Below, in pieces: positions 22,294-25,501 of a DNA stretch of 51,586 nt. The translations under genes and the position numbers were made by a program. This stretch comes from Bacteroidota bacterium (GTDB taxonomy: Bacteria; Bacteroidota; Rhodothermia; Rhodothermales; JAHQVL01), in NCBI GenBank assembly GCA_039111535.1, contig JBCCIM010000019.1:1-51586 (forward strand). The letters run 5' to 3'. Every line of letters begins with the position of its first letter. The stretch's first letter is position 1. The notes beneath the pieces are model-generated. The model did no database searches and was not told the origin of the DNA. It saw only the letters and a program-made list of their open reading frames with translations.

Positions 22294-22316
22294 GCGAAAA
22301 CTGGTTTAAGGTGGAA

Positions 22317-22407
22317 GGTTTAAGGTTGAAAGTTTTACGTCGTGGGATACGTCGAAGCGGAGACCAATAATGTTAAACTTTAAACGTTCAACCTGCAACT
22401 TTCAACC
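22317..22407. repeat. intergenic inverted repeat of the GGTTGAAAGTT type
   Basis: GGTTGAAAGTT (22324-22334) and AACTTTCAACC (22397-22407) are a perfect 11-bp inverted repeat spaced 62 nt apart, with related motifs (GGTTTAA at 22317, AACTTTAAAC at 22376) between or beside them. The right arm overlaps the hydrolase stop codon. This looks like a small dispersed repeat rather than a terminator, as no T-run follows. Confidence 0.5.
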
Positions 22408-23331: not shown

Positions 23332-23510
23332 GCAGCGTCGTTTACGAAACGAAAGGCCACAAGTTAGAAATTGGCGGCCTTTTTCTCCACAATCATGGCG
23401 CGCTACATGGGATGCGTACAAACCGGCAGGAAGCCTGGTAGATGCGGTAAGAGAAATGAGATAGCGTGGGGAGCAATATACAAGCGATACCCAGATGGAA
23501 AATGGGGGCA

Positions 23511-23573
23511 GAGTTTCGAATGTCGAGGACGGTAACGCAGGCTCCTTGTTACCTGTGTACCCATTCGAAACTC
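23511..23573 (+). repeat. nested inverted repeat (possible structured RNA element)
   Basis: GAGTTTCGAATG (23511-23522) and CATTCGAAACTC (23562-23573) are a perfect 12-bp inverted repeat, extendable outward with GGGG/CCCC across a 2-nt bulge. Inside lies a second hairpin, GGTAAC (23531-23536) with GTTACC (23548-23553). A stand-alone 14-bp palindrome, CCGGCACGTGCCGG, follows at 23631-23644. The nested arrangement resembles a folded RNA or a miniature repeat element. Confidence 0.55.
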
Positions 23574-23672
23574 CCCTGGCCTCGAGATAAAAATGTGGAG
23601 GGCATCAGAAGGTTAACTTCTGTATGTGAACCGGCACGTGCCGGGTTATAGCCAAAAAGGAGGCAAGCGGCT

Positions 23673-23743
23673 CGGGAGGTCGGGAGGTCGGGAGGTCGGG
23701 AGGTCGGGAGGTCGGGAGGTCGGGAGGTCGGGAGGTCGGGAGG
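23673..23743 (+). repeat. 8-bp tandem array (CGGGAGGT), G-quadruplex-capable
   Basis: Eight perfect head-to-tail copies of CGGGAGGT fill 23673-23736, with a ninth copy matching for seven bases to 23743. The unit is not a multiple of three, so it is not a protein repeat. Nine GGG tracts are separated by 5-nt loops (AGGTC), which fits the canonical G-quadruplex pattern on the plus strand. Such arrays change copy number by slippage. Confidence 0.93.
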
Positions 23744-23832
23744 AAATGCGGGGAGCATCGGGGGGTTGCAAACGACGAGATCCCAGGTTCATGGCTCGGA
23801 AAGCCCGTCGTTTGCGCTATGTTATGTCCCTC

Positions 23833-23883
23833 GGGGGAACGGGGTGCGCTCGGGGTTGGCCGGGGAGCCTTGGGTTCAGGGGG
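23833..23883 (+). repeat. second multi-G-tract (G-quadruplex-type) motif
   Basis: Six runs of three to five G (GGGGG, GGGG, GGGG, GGGG, GGG, GGGGG) lie within 51 bases, separated by loops of 3, 7, 6, 6 and 4 nt. This satisfies the G3+N1-7 quadruplex rule several times over. It is not part of the 8-bp array and lies 90 nt downstream on the same strand. Confidence 0.7.
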
Positions 23884-23945
23884 ATAGTCAAAAAGCTCGG
23901 GTTCGAATCGTCAGCTGCTGCGGCACTATGGGAGGAGAAGTGCAA

Positions 23946-23982
23946 GGACGGAGACCTCTACCCACTCTTTGGGTCTCCGTCC
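23946..23982 (+). repeat. 11-bp perfect hairpin
   Basis: GGACGGAGACC (23946-23956) pairs perfectly with GGTCTCCGTCC (23972-23982) around a 15-nt loop. Only AATTTGG follows, not a T-run, so it is not a standard terminator on the plus strand. A related 10-bp inverted repeat, GCAAACGACG/CGTCGTTTGC, lies at 23768-23777 and 23806-23815. Confidence 0.6.
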
Positions 23983-24145
23983 AATTTGGAATTGATCTTA
24001 AAGATGTGTCAGCATGTAAAAGAAGTGCTTCCGTTCGTTCTGGTAATAATATCGTTGTTTCTTAAATTCCGCGGTATCGGGGGAATACTGTCATCTTTTG
24101 CAATCAAAACCCCCTACAACCCCCTTACAAAAAACGCCACACTAT

Positions 24146-25501
24146 ATGCCTGTCCTCCCCACAATAGCAACACACGCTGCAACCCTGCAATCCAGACAAA
24201 TTTCGAGTGTTGAGCTGGTTAAAGCCTGCCTAAAGCGCATTAACGCACCTGACGGGGAAGGCGACCTGGCTTTTGTTCATGTAGATGCTGATCAAGCACT
24301 GGCCGCAGCTGCTGCATCAGATCGGTTGCGTGCCGCCGGCATTATGCTCTCGCCCTTGATGGGGTTGCCGGTATCTGTAAAAGATTTGTTTGACATTGCC
24401 GGCCAGGTGACGCGCGCCGGCTCCCGCGTCCTTGCTGAAGCGCCGGCTGCAACTAAAGACGCCACCTGCATTGCCCGCCTCCGCCGTGCTGGGGCAATCC
24501 CTATTGGCCGCACCAACATGACTGAGTTTGCGTATTCCGGGCTCGGACTCAACCCACACTACGGTACGCCAGCTTCTCCTTATGACCGCACAACCCGACG
24601 TATCCCGGGAGGCTCCTCTTCCGGCGCCGGCGTATCTGTGGCTGACCAGATGGCAGTCTTTGGCATTGGCACCGATACGGGCGGATCCGTACGTATTCCT
24701 GCAGCGCTTTGCAATCTTACCGGATTCAAACCTTCAACGGGCCGCGTCCCTACAGCAGGCGTATTACCCCTCTCTACTACGTACGATTCGGTTGGCCCCC
24801 TGGCCCCTTCTGTCGCCTGTTGTGTTACAGTAGACCAGGTGATGACCGACCAGCCCACCACACCACTTGTGCCCCGACCGCTCAACCATCTCAGGCTGGC
24901 CATTCCAACAGGTATTGCAATGGAAGGCCTCGACAACCACGTTGCCACTGCCTTTGCAAGGGCGGCCAAGAAGCTGGAAGCAGCCGGCGCGCATATACAG
25001 GACGTGCAGATCGATGCCATAACAGATCCATCCAGACCAGGCAATGGCGGGCGACTCCTTGCTGCTGAAGCTTATGCCTGGCACCGCCATTATCTTGAAG
25101 CATCGTATGATATGTATGACCCGCGGGTATCAGGCCGCATGATGCCGGCATCTGAAACAAGTGCAGCAGATTATATCGCATTGCTAGGTTGGCGCCGGCA
25201 ATTTCTGCAAGATGTCGCGCAAACCCTGACACCATACGATGCACTCATCTTGCCCACCACGCCCATCACGGCCCCTCCGATCTCATTACTTGAAGAAAGT
25301 GAGGATGCGTATTTTGCCAACAACGTATTGATGCTCAGAAATACATCCATCATAAACCAAATTGACGGCTGTGCGCTTTCAATACCCTGTCATGCACCCA
25401 ATGAGCCACCGGTTGGCTTTATGTTGGCAGGTACAGCAATGCAGGATCAACAGATACTACAGAGTGGCCTGTCGGTAGAAAGCGTCTTGCGAGCGCTGTA
25501 A
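24146..25501 (+). CDS. amidase-signature family amidohydrolase
   Basis: About 451 aa from the ATG at 24146; an in-frame TTG at 24098 is possible, and neither has a clear ribosome site. The Ser-cisSer-Lys triad is complete: K79 (PVSVKDLFDIAG), cis-Ser S157 (GGSSSG, 155-160) and nucleophile S181 (GTDTGGSVRIPA), with the expected 24-residue spacing between the serines. ISSVELVKACLKRI at the start and TGFKPSTGRVPT after the nucleophile are also typical. It hydrolyses an amide bond to acid plus ammonia. It is not the GatA subunit by context, since no gatB or gatC is nearby. The substrate is unknown. It stands alone and cytoplasmic, without signal peptide. Confidence 0.92.
   Translation: MPVLPTIATHAATLQSRQISSVELVKACLKRINAPDGEGDLAFVHVDADQALAAAAASDRLRAAGIMLSPLMGLPVSVKDLFDIAGQVTRAGSRVLAEAPAATKDATCIARLRRAGAIPIGRTNMTEFAYSGLGLNPHYGTPASPYDRTTRRIPGGSSSGAGVSVADQMAVFGIGTDTGGSVRIPAALCNLTGFKPSTGRVPTAGVLPLSTTYDSVGPLAPSVACCVTVDQVMTDQPTTPLVPRPLNHLRLAIPTGIAMEGLDNHVATAFARAAKKLEAAGAHIQDVQIDAITDPSRPGNGGRLLAAEAYAWHRHYLEASYDMYDPRVSGRMMPASETSAADYIALLGWRRQFLQDVAQTLTPYDALILPTTPITAPPISLLEESEDAYFANNVLMLRNTSIINQIDGCALSIPCHAPNEPPVGFMLAGTAMQDQQILQSGLSVESVLRAL

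Follow-up and report, generated by a model that had tools for sequence, protein, structure and literature searches.

The hairpin at 23946-23982 is the likely core of one gene in a multicopy family of small non-coding RNAs (sRNAs), a reading to which we give a probability of about 60%. The hairpin lies in the window, by which we mean the whole stretch of DNA analysed here, 51,586 nucleotides in length. It belongs to a set of 19 homologous copies in three genomes of one bacterial family (G000, G001 and G002); their stems covary and several copies are retained at orthologous loci. From these features we infer a transcript, its strand, its ends and a base-pairing function, and the 19-copy RNA family probably acts in gene regulation.

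Inverted repeats at 23511-23982

The original prediction placed four inverted repeats within 23511-23982 and took their clustering as a sign of a structured non-coding RNA or a decayed element. All four repeats were found, as follows.

23511-23573: nested inverted repeat with 12-bp arms (23511-23522 and 23562-23573) and a spacer of 39; real, without relatives
23631-23644: 14-bp palindrome; real, without relatives
23768-23815: 10-bp inverted repeat with arms 23768-23777 and 23806-23815 and a spacer of 28
23946-23982, minus strand: conserved hairpin with an 11-bp stem, arms 23946-23956 and 23972-23982, a spacer of 15 and the minus-strand loop CAAAGAGTGGGTAGA

The window was divided into 217 tiles of 472 nt with a step of 236, and perfect arms of at least 9 bp with a spacer of at most 60 were counted, together with palindromes whose arms measure 7 bp or more. 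No repeat was present in 184 tiles, while 29 tiles held one, 2 held two and 2 held three. With its four repeats, 23511-23982 is the densest stretch of the window by tile count; both three-repeat tiles overlap this region, and the maximum in any 472-nt tile clear of it is two, therefore the enrichment is real. This clustering beyond expectation would suit the view that the four repeats make up a single large structured RNA or decayed element, and the minus strand of 23455-24010 indeed folds mildly better than shuffles (z -2.17); the plus-strand fold is no better than shuffles (z 0.34). However, homologues exist for the fourth repeat only. The first three occur neither elsewhere in the genome nor at the corresponding locus in G002 and G001, where unrelated sequence occupies their position. 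The whole gap, compared with its own genome and 60 relatives, gave no convincing relative of the first three repeats, and a DNA search with 23490-23660 in the three family genomes returned self and chance matches only. One weak 25-base match of 23793-23817, within the 10-bp repeat, to contig C130 of G000 (E 0.014) looks by eye like part of a coding region. The repeats at 23511-23573, 23631-23644 and 23768-23815 look like unique local sequence and, judged by sequence comparison, the four repeats do not form one element; such an element is very improbable and largely refuted. What survives of the proposed structured RNA is the fourth hairpin, which has homologous loci, copies elsewhere in the genome and compensatory changes. 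Its covariation and orthologous retention contradict a decayed element.

Between the inverted repeats, and absent from the original prediction, nine perfect tandem copies of TCGGGAGG form an octamer array at 23672-23743. The 72-base array recurs in G031, which belongs to another family of the same order; two places there carry it unchanged and a third carries it with 96% identity.

The conserved block and its copies

The fourth hairpin is part of a larger block that is found upstream of the orthologous amidase gene in all three genomes of the bacterial family. The features of this locus are listed below; class A is one of two predicted promoter classes described in the next section.

23936-24084, minus strand: conserved block, predicted sRNA gene (core, boxes and upstream region), common to G002 and G001
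23936-23943, minus strand: 3' flanking box GCACUUCU, exact match
24002-24009, minus strand: 5' flanking box ACACAUCU (family form GCACAUCU)
24021-24028, minus strand: extra box GCACUUCU (GCACAUCU in G001) of the amidase-locus copies
24031-24040, minus strand: GAACGAACGG, invariant in the three amidase-locus copies
24047-24054, minus strand: CGATATTA, putative -10-like promoter element by its position, invariant in all three amidase loci
24075-24080, minus strand: CCGATA, the same hexamer being upstream in other class A copies
24146-25501, plus strand: amidase (PF01425, by Pfam), divergent conserved neighbour, with the start taken from the aligned G002 start

The block 23936-24084 is 73% identical to G002:C410:9522-9675 (blastn, E 1.1e-16). 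The G001 block is more diverged; plain blastn did not report it, and it was identified by reading the sequence at the locus. A model, R1, gives 161.3 bits to the G002 block and 104.6 bits to the G001 block, scores that measure fit and are not independent proof because R1 was built from the three amidase-locus blocks themselves. R1 also matches other places in the three genomes. The amidase proteins are 52-57% identical in G001 and G002, a search of the genome contigs for the amidase returned distant amidases only, and the order amidase, MATE transporter, glucose/sorbosone dehydrogenase is the same in all three genomes. In G002 the amidase starts on a first contig and ends on a second, so the block and the amidase, on two contig ends, presumably belong together. 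A protein-coding block was ruled out, as no reading frame is open across all three. CCGATA lies upstream of CGATATT at equal spacing, counted by eye, in all three amidase loci.

As to the surroundings of the block, ATG at 24146 is a better amidase start than TTG at 24098, according to the aligned G002 start. At 22303-22335 there is a tandem repeat of 14 bases, GGTTTAAGGTGGAA, and a similar string, GGTTTAAGGTGG, was seen by eye beside the tRNA-Lys upstream of the G001 amidase. The segment GGTTCGAATC at 23900-23909 resembles a tRNA T-arm and is possibly a relic or a chance likeness; ARAGORN found no tRNA or tmRNA in the window.

A second model of 59 positions, R2, comprises a box plus the hairpin, and 9 of the 19 copies were used in building it. 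It returned 31 rows in the three family genomes, from which one duplicate (G001:C192), six opposite-strand echoes of kept hairpins and five weak rows (E 0.16-0.79) were dropped, leaving 19 distinct copies (9, 5 and 5 per genome). The second G001:C192 copy belongs to an inverted duplicate in one contig, and the pair was counted once. The window copy scores 59.7 bits. Each genome thus holds several paralogous copies with a shared core, at the following places.

Amidase locus: copies in three genomes
Upstream of a hybrid histidine kinase: copies in three genomes; proteins 52% and 60% identical
Adjoining rarA: same-orientation array of 5, 3 and 2 units in G000, G002 and G001; RarA 81% and 77% identical
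Adjoining an SNase gene: copies in two of three genomes; 36% identity
Near ccmF: one copy, G000 only; 32.1 bits, weak

The rarA array is upstream of dctQM in G000 and G002 (DctM 85% identical) and stands without dctQM in G001. The weakest accepted copy, G002_ar1, has a partly broken stem and 24.7 bits, against 23.7 bits for the best match in an unrelated genome, and was retained because of its array position. R2 found no credible copy in 111 other genomes of the order (11 with matches at E <=0.01, the best at 23.7 bits) and none in a 394-genome sample of the phylum (weak matches in 6 genomes besides G000); the matches in these 11 and 6 genomes were dismissed by score. Carriage by phages found no support, as two class A patterns gave no matches in viral contigs.

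The G001 contig mentioned above (L112, G001:C192, 1-15162) is duplicated onto itself in inverted orientation, probably through an error of assembly. By eye, it carries an apparent tyrosine-recombinase gene beside tRNA-Lys.

The stem of the family is maintained by compensatory changes, which had been proposed as a check of the structured RNA. Across 19 copies and 11 pairs, 195 of 209 cells form standard pairs; exchange of arms between copies gave a mean of 183.1 and a maximum of 190, and none of 2000 shuffles reached 195. Eight of the 11 pairs vary on both sides among the copies. While the stem drifts, the loop GGWGGGGUA is conserved in most copies (it reads GAGUGGGUA in the G000 and G002 amidase-locus copies), and a GCACWUCU-like box lies on each side of the hairpin in most of them, the 3'-side box being present in 19/19 with small variations. 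The common architecture is a GCACAUCU box, an 11-bp stem with a G-rich loop, and a GCACUUCU box.

A covarying hairpin that has a constant box beside it, and that each genome carries several times at scattered places as well as in a local array, could also be a repeat spread as DNA, namely a REP- or MITE-like hairpin for a single-strand transposase. This is quite unlikely: there are only 5-9 copies per genome, the orthologous loci are kept between genera (neighbour proteins 36-85% identical), and no transposase was noticed in the ORF lists of the flanks; neither the high copy number nor the site turnover of such repeats was found. Another possibility is that the hairpin works as a bidirectional transcription terminator, or as a DNA site bound by a protein, in the space separating divergent or convergent genes. 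It is a strong GC hairpin in intergenic spaces, several of them between convergent genes, with a pyrimidine-rich GCACUUCU tail and, in the G000 histidine-kinase copy, a T7 run. However, a terminator would need neither a conserved loop nor like boxes on both sides, most copies have no T-run directly after the hairpin, and dedicated terminators lie further along in some array units. We therefore regard this explanation as unlikely, and the reading as an sRNA gene is preferred.

Strand, promoter and terminator signals

The RNA strand is probably the minus strand in the window. The original prediction had looked to a plus-strand transcript, and the promoter-like signals, the terminator-like signals and the G-U wobbles all favour the minus strand. 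Strong hairpin-T7 terminators follow 3 of the 19 copies on the RNA strand and none of the 19 on the opposite strand. The three are units of the rarA array and belong to class B (n=7); the other 16 copies have no clear terminator, and the window copy has none within 110 nt. Stem pairs 1-9 hold four G-U wobbles on the minus reading versus one on the plus reading.

Two kinds of upstream sequence were found. In the five copies of class A, TTAnnTAAG, CTTAAG and CCGATA follow each other at fixed spacing, and nine of the 45 columns preceding CCGATA are invariant, against a mean of 0.2 and a maximum of 3 in shuffled sequences. Part of this agreement is due to orthology, because three of the five copies are mutually orthologous and the other two likewise. 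In class B, a CGTAT-anchored -10-like box lies ahead of 6 of 7 copies. CGTATWAT occurs twice in the 51.6-kb window, which is the chance expectation. The -35-like sequences are unlike TTGACA, which counts against the predicted promoters.

In the array units a -10-like box is followed by a 5' hairpin and the core, and 3 of 7 also end in a strong terminator; these elements all lie on the same strand. From the -10 box to the T-run, three array transcripts of 131, 163 and 167 nt are predicted, each folding into three stem-loops, of which the first is 5' of the core and the third is a terminator (z -2.5 to -5.2). The fold of the window copy is unremarkable (z -1.19). Folding energy cannot fix the strand, because folds of the opposite strand are often equally or more stable. 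In some class B array units (L161, 4600-6300; L162, 5700-6700), a GGTACCATT-like string precedes the -10-like box by about 45-60 nt and might serve as an activator site.

We first favoured a plus-strand, riboswitch-like cis-regulatory leader of the amidase, in which the hairpin and its C-rich loop UACCCAC would sense a ligand, given that the block stands before an amidase gene with a MATE gene after it. Indeed, in both the window and G002 the conserved block and the hairpin are found about 60-200 nt ahead of the amidase start, G001 is arranged similarly, and most other copies are also 5' of a similarly oriented gene (histidine kinase, dctQM, ccmF). The leader was dropped, since the other copies are not leaders and the terminators are on the other strand, as are the -10-like boxes. 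Other copies are about 340-670 nt from genes, the G001 array persists without dctQM, no gene of that orientation begins downstream of the SNase-locus copies, and the neighbouring genes have no shared function. A consistent co-directional position upstream of genes is broken by the SNase-locus and G001 array copies, and we now consider a leader unlikely.

Proposed function and known systems

We propose that the window gene would be a minus-strand sRNA gene divergent from the amidase, with its promoter near 24045-24080. The transcript would start at about 24041 and run leftward through GCACUUCU, ACACAUCU, the hairpin and GCACUUCU, ending left of 23936. Each copy of the family would be driven by its own promoter, with TTAnnTAAG/CTTAAG/CCGATA upstream in class A and CGTATTATA upstream in class B; with such differing upstream sequences, the copies may answer different signals. 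The exposed G-rich loop and the single-stranded GCACWUCU flanks may serve as seed sequences, through which the paralogues could base-pair with a common set of mRNAs.

Neither the window nor any of nine related loci had an Rfam match that reached the gathering score, and the rarA array had no match at E up to 1. Two Rfam resemblances were rejected. The C-rich-loop hairpin of RF02342 (ar7, an alphaproteobacterial sRNA) matches the plus strand at 23906-24001 with 30.4 bits versus a gathering score of 60; it is on the other strand and the array has no match, so it was judged a chance resemblance, as was a mir-3047 match. From its sequence features, the family, which is absent from Rfam, is best read as trans-acting sRNAs of a new multicopy kind. 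No literature on sRNAs of this lineage was found by title; a report on sRNAs in an extremophilic community has a single mention of Salinibacter in its available excerpt (PMC7002113).

More tentatively, the family may constitute a lineage-specific regulon in bacteria where no Hfq was detected, with up to nine paralogues, two promoter classes, boxes that would bind an RNA-binding protein and the loop as the mRNA seed; we consider this version doubtful. Searches of the three family genomes turned up no Hfq gene, and RRM_1 was found in one of the three, which is not G000, in assemblies that are 89-98% complete. If transcribed, this uncatalogued family, with its predicted promoters, paralogues and orthologues, in three genomes where Hfq was not found, offers concrete genes for studying regulation by base-pairing in the absence of Hfq, and for asking why sibling sRNAs persist under different promoters.

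The Qrr RNAs of Vibrio are sibling sRNAs. Base-pairing to mRNAs is suggested here by analogy with Qrr, LhrC, FopS and the SmelB053 family. LhrC1-5 of Listeria are siblings too, in which one short motif recurs in loops and single-stranded stretches, as outlined in PMC4132741; the LhrC motifs are UCCC, whereas the RNA strand here has G-rich loops and GCACWUCU boxes. FopS is a 14-copy paralogous sRNA family of Bacteroides, which lacks classical RNA chaperones, according to the available part of PMC11697453. It is likewise multicopy, dispersed and mostly intergenic. FopS differs in its length of about 65-70 nt, its 5' seed R1' and its partner RbpB (RRM-1), and the presence of RRM_1 in one genome only, not G000, does not point to a partner of this type. 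The closest architecture is that of the SmelB053 family of Rhizobiales, multicopy sRNAs with three stem-loops of which the first is variable or missing, the second loop-conserved and the third a terminator, as the accessible text of PMC3927594 describes them. The SmelB053 loop is GGAUGUA, in Alphaproteobacteria, versus GGWGGGGUA here, and that family is reported with fragmented synteny near mobile elements, whereas the present loci are conserved across genera; both families have several copies per genome.
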